Below are positions 509-13,290 of a stretch of 64,000 bases of DNA, in pieces. The number at the start of each line of letters is the position of its first letter. Positions within the stretch are counted from its first letter, which is position 1. The stretch comes from Streptomyces sp. NBC_00289 (GTDB lineage: Bacteria; Actinomycetota; Actinomycetes; Streptomycetales; Streptomycetaceae): contig NZ_CP108046.1 in assembly GCF_041435115.1 (NCBI RefSeq), forward strand, positions 10,478,001-10,542,000. The letters run 5' to 3'. The translations under genes were made by a program, and so were the position numbers. The notes under the pieces were generated by a model, which saw only the letters and a program-made list of their open reading frames with translations, was not told the origin of the DNA and did not search any database.

Positions 509-3500
509 ATGTTGTCGAGGGTTGGCAGAGGAGGCGGGAGGCGTCGTGGTTCGGCGTTTGCTGCCGCTTTGGGGTTGTTGGTGGGTGTGGTGCCGGGGGT
601 GGTGTTTTCTTCCGGTGCATGGGCGGTGGATGGGCCGCCGGTGGCGAAGCATCCGGTCAAGTTGCCGGCGGAGTTGCCGCAGGTGGCTGGGGCGAAGGCT
701 GGTTTTCTGGCGGGTTCGGGTGGGGTGGGTCCGGGTGGTGCGTTCACTTACCGGGTGCCGTTGAGTGTGCCGGCGGGCCGGGCTGGTGTGGAGCCGGGTC
801 TGTCACTGAATTATTCCAGTGCCGGGCATGATGGGGTTTTCGGGCTGGGCTGGTCGGCGTCCGGGATGTCGTCGTCGATTAGTCGGTGTGGGAAGAATCC
901 GGAGGATGACGGGACCCGCAGCGGTGTGCATTACGACAAGAACGACCGGTTTTGTCTCGACGGGGCCAGGCTCGTCGGGGTGGATGCGGAGCAGGGGACG
1001 TCGGGTGATTATGGTGCCGACGGAACGGTGTACAACACCGCGGAATCGAGTTTTGCCAAGATCGTGTCGGTGAACGACGACGGGTCGAGTGCGAGTTTGG
1101 ACAGTGGTCCGGACAAGTTTGTGGTTGCCGGGAAGAACGGTCTGATCAGCACGTATGAGGCGCAGACCGGGGTGCGCGTCGGTGCGGATTCGGCGACGTT
1201 GACGAAGAGTTGGCTGGTGGACCGGGAGGTCACGGCGACTACGCCCGGCCCGCCTAAACCTGATGGAAGCCCCGGTACCCCGTTCACCGAGAAGGGGACG
1301 GTTCGAGACAAATTGTCGGATCAGTTCCTGCAGCAGCATTCCGATGAGGTTTCCACGCCGCGTGTGGTGTGGCTGCTGAAGAAGATGGCAGACCGCAACG
1401 GCAATGAGATGCGGTACTCCTACGACGTGCAGACTTCTCTGCTTTTCGGGAACCGCTTCTTGCCGAAGGCGATCGACTACACGTTCGGTCCGGGCCGTCA
1501 GGCGGAGCGGTCAGTTGAGTTCGGGTATGAGAGCAGACCCGACCCGACGTCTTCGTATGTGGCTGGTGTCCGTTACAGCAATACGCAGCGACTCAAGACG
1601 ATCAAAATGTTTGCGCCGAATCCGGGTAAAAAGGCTTTGGTGCGGACGTACAATCTCTCTTACCTTGGTGCGGGGACTGCTGATCACGATAAGACGCGAA
1701 GTCTGCTCTGGCGAGTTCAGGAGTGCGGTGCGCTGAGCGGCTGTCTGCCGTTCAAGGAGTTCGACTGGTTCAATGCGGAGAACAGGCCGTCGTTTGACGG
1801 ACAGTTCCTCGGGGGTACCTGGCATCCCGCGCCCGCTTCACCGACGGACGGCGACACGTCGATGGACCCGGTGATGTCCGTTCAGGACCTGGACGGGGAC
1901 GGCGTCGATGACATTCTGACGCAGAACAACCTGTCGACCGGCCGGGGGGTGCAAGCCCGCCTCGGTGTCCGCGACGGCAGCTCGGTGGCGCCGCTGTCGG
2001 ATGTGCGTGCGGTGAGCGGGGTCGGTGCGTTTCCTCCGGTCGAGCCGCAGGGCGCCAATCCGGGGCTGGACCTCGCACAGGGACGGCCCCTGGACTCGGA
2101 CGGGGACGGCAAAACAGAATTCATGGTCCGCTCGGCGGACCTGACGGGCCTGCACGAGAAGGTGCTGCACTGGAATCAGGCCAAGCACGAGTTCGAGAGC
2201 ACCGGCCTCGTTTTCGACGATGACGGGTACTACTCCAACTATGCGGATGTCAACGGCGATGGCCTGGTGGACCGTATTGCCGCGGATGTTGCGGCAGGAA
2301 GTGACGACCCGGACAACCGTAGGGATCTGTCGGTGCGGTTGAACAAGGGCGACAACCATTTCGCCAACCGCGTCGATTCCACCATCAAAGGCAAGTGCCC
2401 CGGAGCCAGGATCGCGGACGTTGATGGCGACGGCCGAGCGGACATGATCATCGACACGCCGCTGCTCGTCAAGGACCGGAACGGCAAGTACGTATGCGGT
2501 GTGGGATTCCACACCAATGCGGTCCACGTGGACGATCAGGGTGCCCTCAAGATCGAGCTCGGTCGGGGCTCGGACAGCAATGTTGGTGATCCCGGCTGGA
2601 AGTTCCCTCCGCTCGCACCGCAGCACCCCGAGTGGGAAAGGGAGATGAAGGACCTCGAAGGACACAATGTTCCCCCCTTCCCGACCGCTGACGAAAACGG
2701 CGTCTACGGGTGGCATTCCTACCAGGCCGACCTCAACGGGGACGGCCTCAAGGACACTTTGTTGATGGGGAGGGTGCCCGGCTACCACGACGTCATCCTG
2801 TGGAACACGGGCGAGGGTCTGTTCTGGGACGGCAAGACACTCGACGACAGCCTGCAGATCGATCACGATGCGATCGACTTGTGGCAGGATTCCACCGTGC
2901 AGATCGCGGACGTCAACAAGGACGGCCGCGACGATGTGGTCACCTTCGCCAAGACCGGCACGTCGTCGGTGTCCCTGCTGCTGTCCAAGGGCGACGGTAC
3001 GTTCGACCTGGAGAAGGTCGCCGCCGGGCCGATGGACCGCATCGCCAGGCTGGGAGATTTCAATGGCGACGGGAACACGGACATCCTCAAGGCCGAGGCC
3101 AACCAGCTGGAGCTTTTGACGCAGACCTCCGACTCCGGCACCCGGATCACCAAGGTCCGGGACGAGGGCGCGGGCTGGAACCGGGAGTCGGTGACGTATT
3201 CCAGTGACTTCAGTGACCAGGCTGGTGCCGGAAACGCCGAGTGTGACTTCCCGCTGATGTGTGTGCACCGGGGTATGACGGTGGTGCGTCAGGTGACGTC
3301 GCGGGAAGGATCGTTCAAGAACGCGTCGGAGAATGCGCGTTCGGTGTTTTATTCGTACCGGGATCCGGTGGCGCATGTTCGGCAGGGCGGTCTCGGGTTC
3401 GGACAGGTGTCGGTGTGGGATCCGACCCGGCCCTCGATAACGGTCACCAACTATGATCTGCGGACCACGAAGGACGGCGGGAAACACTATCCGTTCGCCT

Positions 3501-6500
3501 CGCTGGCGAAGAATACCATGACCGCCACTCCGGTGCTGACGCAGAATCAGGTCAACAGCAAGGTGGCCTCGGCGACCGCACGGGTCACCCGGGTGGCGAA
3601 TACGCCGGAGTTCCGTCCGCTGGACGGCGGGAAGACATTCGCGGTGTTCCCCAAGACGTCGTCTACCCAGGTGTGGGAGCAGAACGTCAGCCTCGACTGG
3701 GATGCGGCGGCCTCGAGCCATGTCGGCGGCCTGCAGGTTCCCGACCCGGCGGATGTGAAGCGGCAGGTGGACTCCACCACCACGTTCGACGACTACGGCA
3801 ACCAGACCGACGCCAAGAGCGTGACGGTGGGAGGTGCGGCCGTCGAGTCGCACACCGACTACGACCTCTCCCCGCAACGCCAGCAGGACTGGCTGACCGG
3901 ACTGCCGTCCAAGACGACGGTGCAGCGGACCGAGCACGGCAGCACCACTCCGGTGGTGCGGGTGACCGGGTTCACTCACGATGATCTGGGCCGGCGGACC
4001 GCAGTCAACACTGAGCCGGACAACACTGAGCCGGGCAACGCGGATCTGCGCAGCAGCGTGAAAACCGACTACACCGGCCTGGGCATGGTGTCGAAGGTGA
4101 CCGCCACGACGCCGGGCCGGCCGGACCGGGTCACCCACACCGAGTACGCGCCGGCGTTCAGCGATCAGCCGGATGAGGGCATGTTCGTCTCGCAGGTGTG
4201 GTCTGAGCACAGTGTGGCCGCGCACCGGCCCTCGGTGTGGCAGGCGATGCATCCGGCGTTCGGGTTCGCGGTCGCCTCGGAAGACGTCAACGGCGTTGAT
4301 TCCACCGTCTCCTCCTGGGACGACCTGGGCCGGCCCTTGACGGCGGCGACCACCGGCAGGCCGTCGGTGACCACCGCCTACAGTGCACACCTCGACGCCG
4401 GCAACATCACCGGCACGGAGGTCAAGACCACCAGTACCGACGGCGGCCAGGCCGTGAGCGTGAGCGACCCGGCCGGCCGGCCACGGACCAGTTCGGTGAA
4501 GGGTTTCAACGGCACCGCCAGTGTGTCGGTCACCGACTACGACCTGCTGGGCCGGGTGTTTGTGCACTCACGCCCCTCCACCGCTGCCGACCCCTACGAC
4601 GGTTCCTCGGGCGTCACGGTGACCACCTTCGACAGCCTGGACCGGCCGATCCAGACCGAGAGCCCAGACCACAAGTCCACCGTGTTCACCTACCCGTCGT
4701 TCTTCACCAGCCAGGTGCAGTCCCCGCGCGGCAACACCACCCGGTCCACCGTCGACGTCGACGGCCGGCCCGTCAGCGCCACCGCCGTCCTGAAGAACAA
4801 GGACGGCTCCACCACCCCCGTCACCACCACCTACACCTACCCCCGGCTGCAGGCGAAGGCCACCGACACCAAGGGCAACGTCACCACCAGCGACTTCGAC
4901 ATCCTGGGCCGGACGGTCAAGTACACCGACCCCGACCGCGGCACCAGCACCACCCAGTACTTCGGCAGCGGCGAGGTCCGCCAGAGCGCCCGGCTCAAGA
5001 CCAACGGCACCGACGCGATCGTCTCCAGCTACGACTATGACGACCTGGGCCGCCAGACCACCGTCACCGACACCGACAAACTCGCCGGCAAAACCCTCAC
5101 CACCAGCTTCGTGTGGGACACCGCCGCCAACGGCAGCGGACAGATGGCCTCGGCCACCAGCCCCGACCAGGTCACCACCGCCTTCGGCTACGACACCCTC
5201 GGCCGCCTGGAGACCACCAACCTGAGCGTGCCCACCGGCGCCACCACCAAGACACTGCGCGCCGACACCACCTACGACTCCCTCGGCCGGGTCAAGGACC
5301 TCATCTACCCCGCCGCGGGCGCCAGCCGTATGTTCCTCACCACCGGCTACAACGCCAGCGGCTACCCCGAAACCGTCACCGACACCACCCCCGGCCAGAG
5401 CGCCAAGCAGCTGTGGAAGACCACCGGCCGCAACGCCGACCTCTCCCTGGCCACCGCAACCGTCGGCCCCAACGCCCTCAACCGCACCCAGGGCTACGAC
5501 ACCACCGGCCGGCTCACCGACATCGACATCACCAAACCCAGCAACGGCACCAAAATCCTCGACCTGCACTACACCTTCCATCCCGACGGAATGGTCAAGG
5601 ACCGCATCCAGGACGACCCCACCGCCAAACGCGGCGAAACCTTCGACTACGACTCGATGGGCCGGCTCACCAACTGGACCCTGGCCAACGCCACCGACCC
5701 CGAAAAACCCGTCACCTACAGCTACGACACCATCGGTAACCTCACCGGCGTCACCGGAGCCAACCAGGCCGAAACCCGCACCATCGGCCGCCCCGACGGC
5801 ACCCTGCCCCACGCACTGACCGCACGGGACAAAGAAAAATTCGTCTACGACGACCTCAACCGCATCCAGGAAACCAACGACGAACAAGGATCACAGGCCA
5901 CCACCACCTACACCCCCTTCGACCTACCCCGCACCCAGACCTTCCGCGGTGACACCACACCCACCACCTACCTCTACGACGCCTTCGGCACCCGCGTCTC
6001 CAAGTCCGGCCCCAACGGCACCACCCTCTACGCCGGCAAACTCTTCGAACAACGCACCGACAAAAACAACAAAACCAGCTACATCCACTACCTCACCGGC
6101 CCCGACGGACCCATCGGCCAGGCCGTCACCGACACCACCGGCACCACCATCCAGTACACCCACGCCGACCACCTCGGCTCCACCAACACCGTCACCGACG
6201 CCACCGGCACCATCCAGCAGACCACCTACAACGACCCCTACGGCGGCCGCATCAAAGCCGACGGCACCCCCGACACCACCCCCCTGGGCACCCTCACCCG
6301 CGGCTTCACCGGCCACGAACACGACAACCCCGCCCAAATCAACATGAACGGACGCATCTACAACGCCTCCGCCAAAACCTTCCTCACCCCCGACCCCGTC
6401 ACCACCAACCACCCCTACACCTACGTCAACTCCAACCCCCTCAACGCCACCGACCCCACCGGATACGACGACCTCGCCACCTACAACCAGCCCATGGCCA

Positions 6501-7441
6501 CCTACACCGCCGACGAAATAACCGTCACCGGCGAAGCCATCGACACCTCCTCCACCATGACCATCAACCCCTGCGCCAGCATCATCGCCACCGGACCCGC
6601 ATGCGGCAGCGGCAACACCGGCAGCGACAGCAACGGCTACACCACCGTCCAAATCGGCGACGGCACCAACGCCGTCTTCAACCAAGCCCTCCGCAACGCC
6701 GGCTACAACGTCAACCCCTACGGCGGCCCCGACGGAGACTTTTCACCCGCTATAGGCCCCCTCGAAACGGGGGAGGCCCTGTCTCCGGTACAAACAGAGC
6801 TGGAAAATGCAAATGCCAGAGTCGGGTTTTCTGGAGATAATCGCCTGATAGGCACGGGACCCATGTGGGTGACGGAAGGTGCAAATTATGCGTTCGTCTG
6901 GAGGGTTGGTTCGATTGAGGCTGGGGACACCGCAGAAAGCAAGATGGGCGTCATGCAAGAAGATCCGAACGCAATCTTCCCTTTCACGGTGCAACCCGTT
7001 GACCCTAGCACTCATCAGTCATGGGATTCAGGCCTCCCCCCGGCAAGCGCCAGAAGGGTCCGAGTGGGGAATGAATATAATCTATACAATGTCGAGACTG
7101 AAAGTGTAGTCGCGCCGAAGGGGTGGCTTCCGACTATTTCAAACAGTCCGGTACGGGTAATTTCAGCCACCCCGACAAGCTTCACGTTCGTGACACTTCC
7201 TGGGCATATTGACGGACCGGGAGCTCATGTGAGCTTCAGTACATTCTCGTCAGGTGACGATGTACTGCTAATGCAGCGAGGCTACGCGCCAGGAGCTAGT
7301 CGTGTGGTTACAACCGTGCAGCCTCTTTCCCTCTATGGGTGGGCTTGGCGAACGCAGGCCAGGAATCTTGCGGGATATCCCAATGGTCCAACGGGCCTCG
7401 TAGCAGTGGACTATTCGCACGAGCCGTTCGTGAATCATTGA
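509..7441 (+). CDS. secreted RHS/YD-repeat polymorphic toxin-like protein
   Basis: This 2310-residue protein has a signal peptide (Arg-rich start, hydrophobic stretch 16-35, likely cleavage after AWA at 39). An SpvB-like N-terminal region follows (around 80-330, with VPLSVPAGRAG and FGLGWS). Residues about 460-860 hold seven FG-GAP/VCBS-like calcium loops of the DxDGDG type. YD repeats run to about 1850, and the RHS core (HADHLGSTN at about 1885) ends at NATDPTGYDD near 1980. In this family the repeats form a shell and the tail after the core is a variable toxin. The tail here is about 320 residues. Its last 234 (from base 6738) differ sharply in base composition and contain FVTLPGHIDGPGAHVSF, a faint DUF1990-like pattern. 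I could not identify a catalytic motif. No immunity gene follows directly; SUKH proteins occur at 34 and 38 kb. Confidence 0.88.
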   Translation: MLSRVGRGGGRRRGSAFAAALGLLVGVVPGVVFSSGAWAVDGPPVAKHPVKLPAELPQVAGAKAGFLAGSGGVGPGGAFTYRVPLSVPAGRAGVEPGLSLNYSSAGHDGVFGLGWSASGMSSSISRCGKNPEDDGTRSGVHYDKNDRFCLDGARLVGVDAEQGTSGDYGADGTVYNTAESSFAKIVSVNDDGSSASLDSGPDKFVVAGKNGLISTYEAQTGVRVGADSATLTKSWLVDREVTATTPGPPKPDGSPGTPFTEKGTVRDKLSDQFLQQHSDEVSTPRVVWLLKKMADRNGNEMRYSYDVQTSLLFGNRFLPKAIDYTFGPGRQAERSVEFGYESRPDPTSSYVAGVRYSNTQRLKTIKMFAPNPGKKALVRTYNLSYLGAGTADHDKTRSLLWRVQECGALSGCLPFKEFDWFNAENRPSFDGQFLGGTWHPAPASPTDGDTSMDPVMSVQDLDGDGVDDILTQNNLSTGRGVQARLGVRDGSSVAPLSDVRAVSGVGAFPPVEPQGANPGLDLAQGRPLDSDGDGKTEFMVRSADLTGLHEKVLHWNQAKHEFESTGLVFDDDGYYSNYADVNGDGLVDRIAADVAAGSDDPDNRRDLSVRLNKGDNHFANRVDSTIKGKCPGARIADVDGDGRADMIIDTPLLVKDRNGKYVCGVGFHTNAVHVDDQGALKIELGRGSDSNVGDPGWKFPPLAPQHPEWEREMKDLEGHNVPPFPTADENGVYGWHSYQADLNGDGLKDTLLMGRVPGYHDVILWNTGEGLFWDGKTLDDSLQIDHDAIDLWQDSTVQIADVNKDGRDDVVTFAKTGTSSVSLLLSKGDGTFDLEKVAAGPMDRIARLGDFNGDGNTDILKAEANQLELLTQTSDSGTRITKVRDEGAGWNRESVTYSSDFSDQAGAGNAECDFPLMCVHRGMTVVRQVTSREGSFKNASENARSVFYSYRDPVAHVRQGGLGFGQVSVWDPTRPSITVTNYDLRTTKDGGKHYPFASLAKNTMTATPVLTQNQVNSKVASATARVTRVANTPEFRPLDGGKTFAVFPKTSSTQVWEQNVSLDWDAAASSHVGGLQVPDPADVKRQVDSTTTFDDYGNQTDAKSVTVGGAAVESHTDYDLSPQRQQDWLTGLPSKTTVQRTEHGSTTPVVRVTGFTHDDLGRRTAVNTEPDNTEPGNADLRSSVKTDYTGLGMVSKVTATTPGRPDRVTHTEYAPAFSDQPDEGMFVSQVWSEHSVAAHRPSVWQAMHPAFGFAVASEDVNGVDSTVSSWDDLGRPLTAATTGRPSVTTAYSAHLDAGNITGTEVKTTSTDGGQAVSVSDPAGRPRTSSVKGFNGTASVSVTDYDLLGRVFVHSRPSTAADPYDGSSGVTVTTFDSLDRPIQTESPDHKSTVFTYPSFFTSQVQSPRGNTTRSTVDVDGRPVSATAVLKNKDGSTTPVTTTYTYPRLQAKATDTKGNVTTSDFDILGRTVKYTDPDRGTSTTQYFGSGEVRQSARLKTNGTDAIVSSYDYDDLGRQTTVTDTDKLAGKTLTTSFVWDTAANGSGQMASATSPDQVTTAFGYDTLGRLETTNLSVPTGATTKTLRADTTYDSLGRVKDLIYPAAGASRMFLTTGYNASGYPETVTDTTPGQSAKQLWKTTGRNADLSLATATVGPNALNRTQGYDTTGRLTDIDITKPSNGTKILDLHYTFHPDGMVKDRIQDDPTAKRGETFDYDSMGRLTNWTLANATDPEKPVTYSYDTIGNLTGVTGANQAETRTIGRPDGTLPHALTARDKEKFVYDDLNRIQETNDEQGSQATTTYTPFDLPRTQTFRGDTTPTTYLYDAFGTRVSKSGPNGTTLYAGKLFEQRTDKNNKTSYIHYLTGPDGPIGQAVTDTTGTTIQYTHADHLGSTNTVTDATGTIQQTTYNDPYGGRIKADGTPDTTPLGTLTRGFTGHEHDNPAQINMNGRIYNASAKTFLTPDPVTTNHPYTYVNSNPLNATDPTGYDDLATYNQPMATYTADEITVTGEAIDTSSTMTINPCASIIATGPACGSGNTGSDSNGYTTVQIGDGTNAVFNQALRNAGYNVNPYGGPDGDFSPAIGPLETGEALSPVQTELENANARVGFSGDNRLIGTGPMWVTEGANYAFVWRVGSIEAGDTAESKMGVMQEDPNAIFPFTVQPVDPSTHQSWDSGLPPASARRVRVGNEYNLYNVETESVVAPKGWLPTISNSPVRVISATPTSFTFVTLPGHIDGPGAHVSFSTFSSGDDVLLMQRGYAPGASRVVTTVQPLSLYGWAWRTQARNLAGYPNGPTGLVAVDYSHEPFVNH

Positions 7442-8330: not shown

Positions 8331-8399
8331 CTAGTTCAAGGGGACCACCCCCTCTCCTGCGGTGGCCTGGGTGAGCCGGAAGCTGTCACCCTGGGTGGC
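8331..8399 (-). pseudogene. istB: istB, 3' end (split gene)
   Basis: The minus strand encodes ATQGDSFRLTQATAG and then VVPLN and a stop, the usual C-terminus of Streptomyces IstB helper ATPases of the IS21 family. The rest of the gene is at 11084-11757, separated by the serine-recombinase element. Joining bases 11084 and 8399 gives codons for HVV followed by ATQGDSF with no frame change, so this is one gene split by an insertion. Confidence 0.82.
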
Positions 8400-10020
8400 C
8401 ACCAACGGAACGCAGATGGTCTTGGCTGGACGGTGCGGGGCGGCGGGGCCAGGGACTGGGTGGGGTGGGCTGCTGAGGTGGCTCGTCGAGTGGGATCCGT
8501 AGGTGGATCTTGACGTGCCGGCCGGTGACTTCGATCTCCTCGATGACTGTGCGGAGGAGGGCTTGTTGCCGGTCGAAGTCGAGGGCGTCGATTCCGGCGC
8601 GGGCCCGACTGGTGAAGTCGGCGATCCTGTCGCGGAGTTGGCCTGTCTGGGCAAGTTCGTGGCGCCGGGCTGCGAGTGCGTCACGTCGCTGGGCCAGGTC
8701 GTGGCGGCGGTGGTCGATCGCGGTGGCGCGTCGTTGCAGGTCGAGGAGGTCGATCAGACCGGCCTGATAGAGATCCGCCAAACGGCTCCGCTCGGCTTGA
8801 GTCGCGGCGATCTTGCGGTCGAGGCCACTCAGTTCCTTCGCCAGCAGTTCATCGCTGGATGCCTTCTGCGCGATTGCGTGCTGGCCAGCGAGGAGGACGT
8901 CGGGACGCAGGAGGACGTCGCGGACCTGGGCGATGACGAAGGCGTCCAGGACGTCGGCGCGGATGTTGCGTTCGGTGCAGCGGCGGTCGCTGCCGCCGGC
9001 TCGGATCGGGTCGTGGTTGCGGCAGTAGTAATAGCGGTGGAAGGCGCCGTTGCGGCCGCGCATCTTGTGACAGTTCGTGCCCACGTGGCAGGAGCCGCAT
9101 TTGACCAGTCCGCGCAGCATCCACTGGCCGGGCTCGGTCCGGCGCGGGCTCCACTTGCTGTTGTTACGGCTCACGCGACCGACCGCGAGGAAGGTCTCTT
9201 CGCTGATGAGGGCGGGCACCGTGATGGCGGTCCAGTCCTCCCGCGGCCTGGGGACCTGGCGGGGACGGCGTTCTGGGCGCGGGTCGGGAACCGTGGTGGT
9301 GCGGTTGAAGTAGACCCGGCCGACGTATGCCTCGTTGTGAAGGAGCCGGGCGATGGTGGAGGATCCCCAGACGCCGTTGCCCTTCTTCGGGGTGGGGATG
9401 CGGTCGGCGGCGAGCCCGTGGATGATCTCGCGCATCGACAGATCGCGCACCGCGTAGTCCTCGAAGATCCGCCGGACCACTGCGGCCTCCGGCTCGAAGA
9501 CCTCCAGGTGAGCGGCCCGTTCACCCTCTCGGGGAAGTCGCCGGTAGCCGTAGGGCGTGCGCCAGGAGATAACCTCGCCGGCGCGAGAGCGGAAGAGTTT
9601 GCCGCGCCGGTAGCGTTCAGCGATCTTGGCCCGTTCGTACTCGGCGATCACGCCCTGGACCTGTGTCAGCAAGATTGCCTGTGGATCGTCTGTGATCGGC
9701 GGGGCGTCGGTGAAGCAGACTTTCACCTGCAGGCGGGCCAGTTCGTCCAGGACGACGACCTGGTAGGCATAGACCCGGGCGAGTCGGTCCGGCGACAGGC
9801 ACCACACCCGCTCGAACAGCCCGGCCTCGGCCGCGTCCCGCAGCGCGTCCAGGCCCGGCCGGTCCAGGTGGGCTCCCGAGCAGCCGTCGTCGGTGAACTC
9901 GGCGACCAGCTCGTCGCCCTCGGCGGCCACCCGTTCGTGCAGCACGGCCAGTTGAGAGCCGATGGTGCCGCGGGCCTGCTGCCCCTCGGTGGACACCCGC
10001 GCATAGAGCGCGGCCTTCAC
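8386..10020 (-). CDS. large serine recombinase
   Basis: The protein has about 544 residues. The resolvase-type catalytic domain comes first, with the nucleophile in LYARVST (Ser10 from the GTG start). A Recombinase domain spans roughly 150-260. A zinc ribbon follows (CGSC, then YYYC and a further Cys, about 310-360), then a Leu/Arg-rich coiled coil (about 390-460), the standard order for large serine recombinases. The GTG at 10020 overlaps the upstream stop as GTGA, suggesting translational coupling; an ATG at 10035 is an alternative. It is presumed to move the element at 8400-11083. The TGA at 8386-8388 lies outside the element in istB, so the last residues (after SSQDHLRSVGG) come from the target. 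Confidence 0.92.
   Translation of the reverse strand: MKAALYARVSTEGQQARGTIGSQLAVLHERVAAEGDELVAEFTDDGCSGAHLDRPGLDALRDAAEAGLFERVWCLSPDRLARVYAYQVVVLDELARLQVKVCFTDAPPITDDPQAILLTQVQGVIAEYERAKIAERYRRGKLFRSRAGEVISWRTPYGYRRLPREGERAAHLEVFEPEAAVVRRIFEDYAVRDLSMREIIHGLAADRIPTPKKGNGVWGSSTIARLLHNEAYVGRVYFNRTTTVPDPRPERRPRQVPRPREDWTAITVPALISEETFLAVGRVSRNNSKWSPRRTEPGQWMLRGLVKCGSCHVGTNCHKMRGRNGAFHRYYYCRNHDPIRAGGSDRRCTERNIRADVLDAFVIAQVRDVLLRPDVLLAGQHAIAQKASSDELLAKELSGLDRKIAATQAERSRLADLYQAGLIDLLDLQRRATAIDHRRHDLAQRRDALAARRHELAQTGQLRDRIADFTSRARAGIDALDFDRQQALLRTVIEEIEVTGRHVKIHLRIPLDEPPQQPTPPSPWPRRPAPSSQDHLRSVGGHPG
8400..8414 (+). repeat. left terminal inverted repeat of the recombinase element
   Basis: CACCAACGGAACGCA is an exact inverted match to the sequence at 11067-11081. 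The recombinase reading frame passes through this repeat and ends only in istB DNA. Confidence 0.75.
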
Positions 10021-10349
10021 CGCACCCACCTCCATGCCTGATCACTCCCGAAGCCGAGACGGTCGGCGGCCTCCAGCAGCACCGCGAACACGGCGGCAAG
10101 CACGTCCATTCGCGGGTCATGGTGCGGTGTCCATGCAGGTCGACGCGCTCCGGACAGTTCGGCCATAAAGTCTGTCTCACCGGCCGGCCAGGAGATGAGT
10201 CCGACCAGTCCGCGGCGGGCGAAGCGGGCCGCAGCCAGCGAGGACGGCATCCTGCTGTGTTCGAGGACGTGACTGCGGAGCAGTTCGTACTCGGCCTGTG
10301 CGTGCTCGCCCGGCAGCGGAAACCAGCCCTGCCCCGACGATGTGGTCAT
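10017..10349 (-). CDS. small HTH-like protein of the recombinase element
   Basis: This 110-residue protein starts at the ATG overlapping the upstream stop (ATGA, 10346-10349) and ends overlapping the recombinase start. Residues 18-50 (QAEYELLRSHVLEH, then SLAAARFARRGLVGLISW) resemble the helix-turn-helix segment of the preceding protein (QVKYEMLRAHVVEG and so on), so the two appear to be paralogues. The tail is helical with no known motif. Its tight coupling suggests a DNA-binding accessory or directionality role in movement of the element. That role is inferred; no function is established from the sequence. Confidence 0.65.
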   Translation of the reverse strand: MTTSSGQGWFPLPGEHAQAEYELLRSHVLEHSRMPSSLAAARFARRGLVGLISWPAGETDFMAELSGARRPAWTPHHDPRMDVLAAVFAVLLEAADRLGFGSDQAWRWVR

Positions 10350-10773
10350 GGCCGCCGGATCCGTTCCACCGTGCGCCGGTGCAACAGCTCGCCGAAGATT
10401 CGTTCCACCTCGTCGGCCAACACTGCACTCGAGAGGCCCGCGGGTGCCGCCTGGATGAAGGCACGATGTCCTCGGTGACCTTGACCGGGCCGTGCCGTCC
10501 GGGCCGCCCGTCCAGCAGACCCGTCATGCCTGCTTGTGTGAAGGACGCCTTTACCAGGTAGAACGCCGAACGTGAATAGCCGTGAGCCGCCGCTGTGGCG
10601 CTCACGCTCCGGCCCTCGACCACGTGCGCCCGGAGCATCTCGTACTTGACCTGGACCTTGTCGTGGGCCAGGAAGAAGCCGCCCTCTGCGAACAGCGGCG
10701 AGGTGACCATCTCCGGGTTCGGGTGCAGCAGTCCGGAGGTTTCCAGGACCTTCACTCTCGTCGGTTCGCTCAT
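10346..10773 (-). pseudogene. HTH protein of the recombinase element, frameshifted
   Basis: The gene opens at 10773 with a protein whose residues 40-85 form a homeodomain-like helix-turn-helix (EMLRAHVVEG, SVSATAAAHGYSRSAFY). This type is commonly found beside serine recombinases in Streptomyces. After VKVTEDIV the frame breaks near 10463. The expected continuation, FIQAAPAGLSSAVLADEVER, is in another frame and ends at the TGA that overlaps the next start. One missing base (GTG followed directly by CCTTC) explains the break. Without repair the ribosome would read out of frame across the next gene. The first gene of the cassette is therefore probably inactive. Confidence 0.7.
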
Positions 10774-11066
10774 CGGCCCCGCCTCCTACTTCGGAAGGTA
10801 AGGCGGCCGCGAGTCCGTGTCGACCGTTTCCCGCCGCACTCTTTGAACGCGCCGGAACTACCAACAGCGCACGCCCTGTTGACGGCTCCTCGCACCGAAT
10901 ACCGAGGTCATGAAGCGGTGCTTCTCGCTGAACACGGCGGCAACGGTCACTGCACATCTGGGACCCTCTCCACGATGGGTCGTCGAAGACGTCGACGGTG
11001 CTCAGGACGCGAGTACAGCCCCTCCACCGACTCCTCGGATGCCAGCGTGACCGTCAAGTACAGCTT

Positions 11067-11081
11067 TGCGTTCCGTTGGTG
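11067..11081 (-). repeat. right terminal inverted repeat of the recombinase element
   Basis: TGCGTTCCGTTGGTG is the exact reverse complement of the left repeat. The adjoining bases 11084 onward resume the istB coding sequence on the minus strand. Confidence 0.75.
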
Positions 11082-11083
11082 AC

Positions 11084-11757
11084 GACGACGTGGGCGTGGT
11101 GGAGGAGCCGGTCGACGGTCGCGGTGGCGAGGGTCTTGGGCATGATCTCTTCGAAACCAGCCGGGTGGAGGTTGCTGGAGACCGCGAGAGAGCGTTTTTC
11201 GTAGGCGGCATCCACCAGGCGGTAGAAGCCCTCGGCGGCGTCCGGCGCGATGGGCAGGAGTCCGATGTCGTCAACGATGACGAGGTCTGCCCGCATGATC
11301 CTGGACATGGCCTTGGCCATGGAGTCGTCCGCGCGGTGGCGTCGCACCAGTGTGCCGAGGTCTTCGATGGTGAACCAGCAGGTGGTCATCCCGGCCTCGA
11401 TGGCCGCGTGGCCGAGTGCTTCGCACCAGTGGCTCTTGCCCGTGCCGGAGGGTCCCACGATGCAGAGGTTCTCTTGCCGTGAGATCCATTCCAGGGTGCG
11501 CAAGGCGGTCTGGGTTGCGGTGGGGATGGAGGACTTCGTCTCGTCCCACACCTGGAAGGTCTTCCCGGCTGGGAAGCCTGCCTTTTTGCGCCGGTTGACC
11601 AGCATCGCGGCGTCCCGGCCGGCGGCCTCTTCCGCCAGCAGGACGCGGACGAGTTCGGCGGGGTCCCAGCGCTGGGCGCGTGCGGTGGGGATGAGGTCGC
11701 TCAGCTGCCGTCTCACGTGCGGGAGCCGAAGCCGTCGGGTGAGCTCGATCGCCTCGT
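11084..11757 (-). pseudogene. istB: istB, 5' and central part (split gene)
   Basis: The minus strand encodes an IstB-type AAA+ ATPase, the target-selection helper of IS21 transposition. Codons begin at the IS junction with NEAIELTRRLRLPHVRRQL. Walker A is GPSGTGKSH and Walker B is LVIVDDIGLLP. The coding region stops matching at HHAHVV, exactly where the recombinase element starts, and resumes at 8399. The start codon was lost when an IS701-type element entered at 11757-11761. No istA from this copy is present. The gene is therefore broken twice by different elements. Confidence 0.85.
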
Positions 11758-11858: not shown

Positions 11859-13290
11859 ATGACTGCTCGCCGTCCGTGTCCGCCCGCGCCGGGTCCGTTG
11901 GAGGAGTACGCGGCCCGGTTCGACGACCTCTTCTTCAGCCTGGCCCAGCGGCGGGGGTTTCGCGAATACCTGACCGGGCTGCTGGCACCGAGAGAGCGGA
12001 ACAAGACGATCACCTGCCTGGCAGGGGCGGAACCGGTGGCAGGTGCAGGAATGCCAGGGGTGCAGCGGCTGCAGTTCTTCCTGTCCGAGTCGCCCTGGGA
12101 GGCCGAGCAGATCAACGACCGGCGGCTTGAGCTGCTGCACGAGGAGCCGGCGACCGCTCCGCACGACGGCGGGGTCATCGTGATCGACGATTCCGGAGAC
12201 CGCAAGGACGGCACCGCGACCGCGCACGTGGGCCGGCAGTGGCTGGGCCGGCTGGGCAAGACGGACAACGGCGTCGTCACGGTGACCACGGTGTGGACCG
12301 ACGGCCGCGTGTACTACCCGCTGCACGCGACTCCCTACACCCCCGCCCATCACTTCGCCCGCGGCCGGGCTGATCTGGCCTTCCGTACGAAACCGCAGCT
12401 GGCCGCCGCTCTCGCGGCCCGCGGGAAGGATGCGGGCTTCGGCTGCCGGGCCGTGGTCGCCGACTGCGCCTACTCCGTCAGCGACGACTGGTATCTCGCG
12501 CTGCGCGAGGCCGGCCTGGCCTACGTGGTCGCGCTCAAGCCGCACCGCGGCACCTGGGCTCCGGCCGACCAGCCGCACACCCCCATCGAGGCCGCGCACG
12601 CCCTGACCTGGAAGGGTGCCAGACGCCCTGGCGACTGGACGGCCGTGGAGCGTCACTTCCGCGACGGGCACACCGAGACCTGGTGGGCCGCCGATGCCCG
12701 CCTGGGCGGCTACGGTCCCGACTCGCCCTGCCGACTGGTCGTGGCCACCACCGACCCAGCCCGGCTGCCGGAGAAGGCCACCTGGTACCTGGCCACCAAC
12801 CTGCCCCACCCCGACGCACCCCACGCCGCCACCAGCCCGCATCCGCCGGCCGACCTCGCCGAGATCGTCCGCCTCTACGGCCTGCGGCCATGGATCGAGC
12901 AGAGCTACAAACAGATCAAGGACGAACTCGGCTGGGCCGACTTCCAGGTCCGCTCCGATCGCGCCATCCGCCGCCACCAGACCCTGGTCAACTGTGCCTT
13001 CTCCTTCTGCTGGGACCAGTGGTTCAACCCACCCGGACCCCTGGATGACACCGCCCCGGACCCGTGCCCCGACGAGGGGCCAGAGAGGGGGACCAACCGA
13101 ACCCCACCCACCCCAACTGCCCTGCTGGCCCAAGGCATTACGTTCGGTCCGCGCCTGGCTCACCCCCGCCACCACCCCGAACCGATGGTGGCGATCCTGG
13201 ACGGACAGAGACCCACCCCCCGACCTCCAGGCCCTGATCGACGCGGTCACCACCGGACACGGCCTTGATCTCTACCTCCGGATTTACTGA
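11859..13290 (+). CDS. IS701-type DDE transposase with a C-terminal frameshift
   Basis: The catalytic residues are visible: VIVIDDSGDRKDG (D, near residue 110), VVADCAYS (D, near 200) and WIEQSYKQIKDELGW (E, near 345). The frame that starts at 11859 runs to 13268. After GTNRTPPTPT its tail is nonsense-like. The expected family tail, QLPCWPKALRSVRAWL and so on to HGLDLYLRI, lies in another frame and ends at 13290. The same break is present in copy 2, so it predates the duplication or is a programmed shift. The final TGA is supplied by IS630, inserted three bases earlier. Whether this copy is active is unclear. Confidence 0.8.

Follow-up and report, generated by a model that had tools for sequence, protein, structure and literature searches.

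A candidate family of large serine recombinase mini-transposons with palindromic ends and a preference for istB

As generally understood, a serine integrase requires central dinucleotides that are aligned and equal, and this also gives it directionality in genome engineering. In a section of PMC3783163, established large serine recombinases (LSRs) carry out efficient strand exchange only when the dinucleotides are in parallel alignment, and serine-integrase attP sites are described, in part of PMC5311408, as inverted repeats that flank the crossover. Tn4451 is said in a passage of PMC5704250 to recombine at 2-bp identical sequences. Excerpts of PMC10083194 describe a clade of multi-targeting LSRs, 63% of them with DUF4368, whose example has one conserved TT core. 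According to part of PMC6188088, IS607 is without terminal inverted repeats and inserted at a GG core. Here we describe an LSR-encoding element that interrupts an istB gene in Streptomyces sp. NBC_00289, and compare it with its relatives and with these systems.

Anatomy of the element and its genes

The element lies in a 64,000-nucleotide stretch of DNA, hereafter the window, and occupies positions 8400-11081, a length of 2682 bp; its termini are perfect inverted repeats of 15 bp. The features of the locus are as follows.

8331..8397, minus strand: 3' part of istB, the interrupted gene
8398..8399, minus strand: dinucleotide beyond the LSR end, reading GC on the istB strand, found in 0/6 intact alleles examined
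8400..8414, plus strand: terminal inverted repeat at the LSR end, 15 bp, read as an attP half-arm
8386..10035, minus strand: large serine recombinase (LSR), 549 aa, with resolvase, recombinase and zinc-ribbon domains
10017..10349, minus strand: HTH2, 110 aa, a conserved small protein and distant paralogue of HTH1
10346..10773, minus strand: HTH1, about 142 aa in relatives, with a frameshift in this copy at about 10441-10462
11067..11081, minus strand: terminal inverted repeat at the HTH1 end, 15 bp, read as an attP half-arm
11082..11083, minus strand: dinucleotide beyond the HTH1 end, reading GT on the istB strand, found in 6/6 intact alleles examined
11084..11716, minus strand: 5' part of istB (IS21-family helper ATPase), the interrupted gene

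The arm at 8400-8414 reads CACCAACGGAACGCA and that at 11067-11081 is its exact reverse complement; the chance of an exact 15-bp inverted match inside 3 kb is, by our estimate, about 0.004. A sequence-only reading of this DNA had placed the unit at 8400-11083, between identical inverted repeats. The repeats and the start stand, and the repeats recur in relatives; the end moves to 11081, since 11082-11083 is not part of the inverted repeat. We read 11082-11083 and 8398-8399 as the two copies of a crossover dinucleotide. Joining the istB flanks with two unspecified bases restores the frame (HVV-x-TQGDSF), as that reading had proposed, and the uninterrupted alleles that it had advised looking for exist: related intact alleles span the join as a single ungapped alignment, and GT occupies this position in all six examined (five from 142 plasmid records, the sixth from contig C2 in this genome). 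The interrupted gene appears mosaic, in that the allele closest to it on the 5' side (58/60) is the most distant on the 3' side (33/45).

An IS701-family transposase gene at window 11859-13268 begins about 140 bp upstream of where istB starts. No istA lies between the two, which makes the IS21 element look truncated on that side. A 2310-aa open frame at window 509-7441 resembles, by eye, an RHS/YD-repeat secreted protein. A second, identical copy of the element occurs near the opposite end of the same contig (its LSR at C1:138136-139782), and its mirror-like position points to terminal repeats of a linear chromosome.

All three genes run leftward, in the order HTH1, HTH2, LSR. The LSR is intact in the window copy and has the domain order of its class, with PF00239, PF07508 and PF13408 all exceeding the Pfam cut-offs; YokA, A118, TP901-1 and TnpX (catalytic domain) are its structural matches among PDB chains. 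Its frame passes through the element end into istB, and its stop codon lies outside the element. HTH1 exceeds the Pfam cut-offs for HTH_29 and HTH_23 and falls short of those for HTH_32 and HTH_28. Its structure model is confident, with several helices, and in structure comparisons it comes closest to bipartite paired-type DNA-binding domains, those of Tc3 and IstA among them, at scores too low for a claim of kinship. The frameshift in the window copy is judged against 11 relatives whose HTH1 frame was read. HTH2 has no Pfam match and owes its label to weak similarity to HTH1. Of the cassette of two HTH-type proteins and an LSR first proposed, the LSR holds, HTH1 holds in a frameshifted form, and HTH2 is kept as an HTH protein with that qualification. 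Both HTH1 and HTH2 probably serve as accessory factors that bind DNA, with a role in directionality, in regulation or in binding of the ends.

Inverted repeats at the termini are a usual mark of DDE transposons, and their presence would suit an unseen transposase, of DDE or other type, that acts in trans with the LSR as a passenger. Against this, none of the eight other open frames of the window's element has a Pfam match, no further conserved gene was seen by eye in 12 elements (frames of at least 80 aa, first 1.7 kb), and the target duplication is two bases at most; we consider such an origin extremely improbable. The ends are best read as putative attP arms, unusually perfect ones, which do not by themselves mark a new class. 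The sequence-only reading had taken them as a break from known LSRs; serine-integrase attP sites, however, are also inverted repeats around a dinucleotide (as set out in part of PMC5311408), so that inverted ends are to be expected. The locus shares with LSR elements the inverted-repeat arms around a central dinucleotide, here arms of 15 bp with two bases from flank to flank. The ends are ordinary in kind, and what is unusual is the near-perfect palindrome, the preference for istB and the mostly unequal left and right dinucleotides.

Relatives, targets and orientation

One scan of species genomes yielded 16 loci, and the element is not restricted to Streptomyces, the genus in which the sequence-only reading had placed the class. 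Whole-genome searches at thresholds of 1e-80 to 1e-130 gave a match in 2/199, 5/396, 2/4, 3/297, 2/66, 2/394 and 2/297 genomes, counts that take in the window's own genome or the centre genome whenever one of these was drawn. Metagenomes hold 1716 LSR homologues at 1e-100, of 7996 scored candidates, and 2215 HTH1 homologues at 1e-5. By record titles the hosts are actinobacteria, one alphaproteobacterium and one 'Acidobacteria' assembly (L009), a label that is doubtful because the same contig recurs as L024 in a genome assigned to the window's phylum.

Fourteen insertions are complete, with both ends and both flanks: the window's own copy (W) and 13 others, mostly actinobacterial (L006, L007, L008, L009, L010, L012, L015, L016, L017, L018, L025, L059 and L060). 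Duplicates of the same contig were left out (L024 and L045, equal to L009; L028 and L046, equal to L010), and several of the loci come from metagenome assemblies. Cassette and ends are present in all 14. Element length is 2641-2716 bp among the elements measured, and LSR identity to the window's LSR is about 53-92% among those compared. The LSR of S. diastatochromogenes ATCC 12309 is 92% identical, and there the frames of all three genes are open. HTH1 is present in W; a pattern found it in 11 relatives, and a profile in L059 and L060. HTH2 was found by pattern in seven relatives and by profile in W, L059 and L060, and was not resolved in L007, L010, L017 and L025. The relatives have the same ends as the window's element, with an inner arm portion, GGAACGCA, that is nearly invariant across elements and an outer portion that differs, often being similar at both ends of one element. 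Sequence comparison establishes this anatomy and its conservation, and the recurrence of the HTH-HTH-LSR cassette with inverted ends at different target sites bears out the earlier call of a serine-recombinase mobile element.

Two further loci, L011 and L013, have both ends present, and in each the contig stops exactly at the right end, as expected if multiple copies break the assembly. A single-contig genome, G580, carries three copies (L025, L059 and L060), of which L059 and L060 have a broken LSR frame.

In 9 of the 14 complete insertions istB is found on both flanks, interrupted at the same codon, with the element in sense in five (W, L018, L025, L015 and L008) and antisense in four (L006, L016, L059 and L060). 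One gene continues in frame across the element, with exactly two bases missing, in 10 of 12 joined cases (the continuity of L009 being judged from the open frame alone), and in these 10 the gap falls on codon positions one and two. In the other two, L010 and L007, the gene on the left flank is not resumed on the right. The target of L012 is a Kribbella secreted-type protein (by eye and from homologues), and that of L009 another secreted-type protein (by eye). The element at L017:2637-5338 lies in a tyrosine-recombinase-like gene (by eye), with GA on both sides and outer arms that match poorly. Target position, two-base spacing and insertion both ways round are shown by sequence comparison. Ends in direct orientation at one fixed attB had been named beforehand as the finding that would speak against a transposon; one codon is indeed strongly preferred, while the element also occurs both ways round and in other genes.

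Since the LSR frame extends into the target, the tail of the protein reports the right flank. The matches listed (120 of 1716, including the query) comprise 119 homologues, of which 12 are without a usable tail and 107 were used. At 50% identity or more, 70 of these 107 tails among the matches listed match istB, 37 antisense and 33 sense, against a mean of 2.1 and a maximum of 6 for shuffled tails. Within the same matches listed, a 40% cut-off gives 38 antisense and 41 sense (shuffled, 10.5) and a 60% cut-off 27 antisense and 12 sense (shuffled, 0.06), so the ratio of sense to antisense shifts with the cut-off. Ten more tails among the matches listed resemble IS110 transposase by an ad hoc pattern; the Pfam domains on P0024 and P0029 are those that we take to belong to IS110 transposases. 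The residue encoded by the final base of the arm together with the dinucleotide is G in 43, D in 16, S in 11, R in 11, V in 10 and A in 7 of the 107 tails among the matches listed, with others in the rest; as it varies among read-through tails, the right-hand cores look diverse.

Half-sites adjoining the dinucleotide match the arm sequence CACCAACGG at 4.8 of 9 positions, against a background of 2.5 in the flanks (37 half-sites). In istB the half-site on the 3' side resembles it at 4-8/9 and that on the 5' side at only 2-4/9, and half-sites outside istB match as well (L012, 8/9; L009, 7/9). This suggests a recombinase-binding motif near the core that may be common to attB and attP. Insertion in both orientations at one codon is not ordinary in kind, and neither are the unequal junction dinucleotides, which sequence comparison likewise shows.

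Junction dinucleotides and a proposed mechanism

In element orientation (left/right), the commonest pair of junction dinucleotides is GA/GA (L006, L016, L008 and L017). The other pairs are GT/GC in W, AC/AC in L025, CT/GA in L018, TA/AA in L012, AA/AT in L010, AC/AT in L015, TA/AC in L009, GA/TG in L007, GC/AA in L059 and AC/TT in L060. Left equals right in 5 of 14, or 5 of 12 when L010 and L007 are left out, a rate above 1 in 16 (P 0.001) and not clearly above the 0.17 given by observed frequencies (P 0.08). A low-specificity serine transposon of TnpX/TndX type, with GA-core targets and istB merely a frequent one, would account for the commonest pair. It would also fit the TnpX catalytic domain among the PDB matches and the Tn5397 targets in B. 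subtilis, always with a central GA in a passage of PMC4430133. However, 10 of the 14 insertions are without GA on both sides, GT, AC, AA and TA junctions exist, and the position in istB is one codon without scatter, and we hold this explanation to be very unlikely.

In W the HTH1 side (GT) agrees with the six alleles examined, and the LSR side (GC) does not. In L060 one side has the AA of both alleles examined and the other has GT (istB strand); its flanks are both near the same two AA alleles (57 and 55 of 60; 28 and 28 of 30). Exactly one native side is demonstrable for W and L060 only. L059 has TT and GC (istB strand), and its closest alleles (58/60 and 44/45 flanking bases) have AC; of seven alleles compared, the four nearest have AC and three others GC. 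At 30 intact istB loci these bases are GC in 13, AC in 10, TC in 5, AT in 1 and GG in 1, and TT in none. Neither side of L018 matches the alleles found (AC, CC), and neither side of L012 matches the homologues found.

We consider it probable, from these comparisons, that the unit is a minimal transposon mobilized by its LSR, an enzyme that can recombine without core identity and so inserts the element either way round. The LSR would pair both ends and make a two-base staggered cut at the dinucleotide beyond each 15-bp arm. We infer an excised circle whose joint would be an attP close to a perfect palindrome (arm, NN, reversed arm); since this site is symmetric, the central dinucleotide alone could set orientation. 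The circle would recombine with a target built as half-site, NN, half-site, in which one half is arm-like (CACCAACGG; in istB often CATCAACGG or similar), and the enzyme may complete the exchange despite unequal dinucleotides. Once replicated, the product would have the target's dinucleotide at one junction and, at the other, the one brought from the previous site, which is what W and L060, each with a single native side, look like. With no need for core identity, insertion could follow in either orientation, and with a single codon of the conserved 3' portion of istB as the preferred target, the element would mostly sit inside other transposons. This core-tolerance reading does not account for L059, L018 and L012.

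In the main rival, the LSR needs core identity, and unequal pairs arose later through homologous recombination between copies in different istB alleles, mutation or assembly error. Several copies per genome are possible, as the three in G580 show, the flanks of L010 and L007 are not from one gene, and the 30 intact istB loci differ at these two bases, so that chimaeras would show such pairs. The flanks of W look mosaic relative to six alleles, and L059 carries two pairs absent from its nearest alleles. Yet the flanks of L060 are both near the same AA alleles with GT on one side, the TT of L059 is in 0/30 loci, and unequal pairs also occur outside istB (L012 and L009). If orientation is set by a core that is not a palindrome, both orientations at one codon would be unexpected from a single attP; differing cores among alleles could nevertheless permit them. 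We find this rival rather unlikely as a whole; recombination between copies nonetheless remains the main, serious rival for the mismatched junctions, given the misfit of L059, L018 and L012 and the mosaic look of W's flanks. W (GT/GC) departs from the LSR-element feature of the same dinucleotide at both junctions, which lowers the case for membership without excluding it, as later recombination between copies could explain some unequal pairs.

Judged from sequence, this is a real family of LSR mini-transposons with a predicted palindromic attP that nests mainly in istB. More tentatively, as a possibility that we put somewhat below even, it may be a family of transposons preying on insertion sequences, with an orientation-blind LSR that has no need for equal dinucleotides and mismatched junctions that record the source site. 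As part of that reading, and at the same tentative level, the arms and the conserved istB coding sequence may have a half-site in common. If true, a natural LSR tolerating unequal cores would challenge the matching-dinucleotide rule, and a large group of elements would be nested mainly in other transposons, with recombinase tails that record their location.

Comparison with known systems

The element group was not found in the literature searched. RIT elements (recombinase in trio) are three-gene units bounded by inverted repeats, with three tyrosine recombinases. The present element likewise has three genes between inverted repeats, these being instead one LSR and two small proteins. As a cassette recombinase of the SCC type the LSR scores 104.6 bits for CcrB and 87.3 for CcrC, against cut-offs of 900, and 32 for CcrA, against 700. 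IS607 similarly uses a serine recombinase to move a small element; the score here is 23.6 bits against a cut-off of 110, and inverted repeats are present. Several different target genes, as seen here, are also a trait of the multi-targeting LSRs in passages of PMC10083194. DUF4368, which is typical of most and not all of that clade, is absent from the LSR's Pfam hits at 0.001.

The Streptomyces serine integrases and minimal SCO2603-type elements (phiJoe family) are likewise driven by an LSR, with an attP inverted repeat around a dinucleotide, and some elements there carry recombination genes only, like the present one, as far as described in part of PMC5311408. In the same part, their attB lies close to the end of a radical-SAM gene, their attP repeat is imperfect and their RDF is a different one, whereas the present element targets istB and other genes in both orientations, and has HTH1-HTH2 and near-perfect arms. 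TnpX and TndX (Tn4451 and Tn5397) are also LSRs acting as transposases, with more than one target and a two-base core. Membership of that group did not hold, with GA at both junctions in 4 of 14 insertions only and GT and GC in W. Compared with Tn4451 and Tn5397, the cores of the present family are variable and often differ between left and right.
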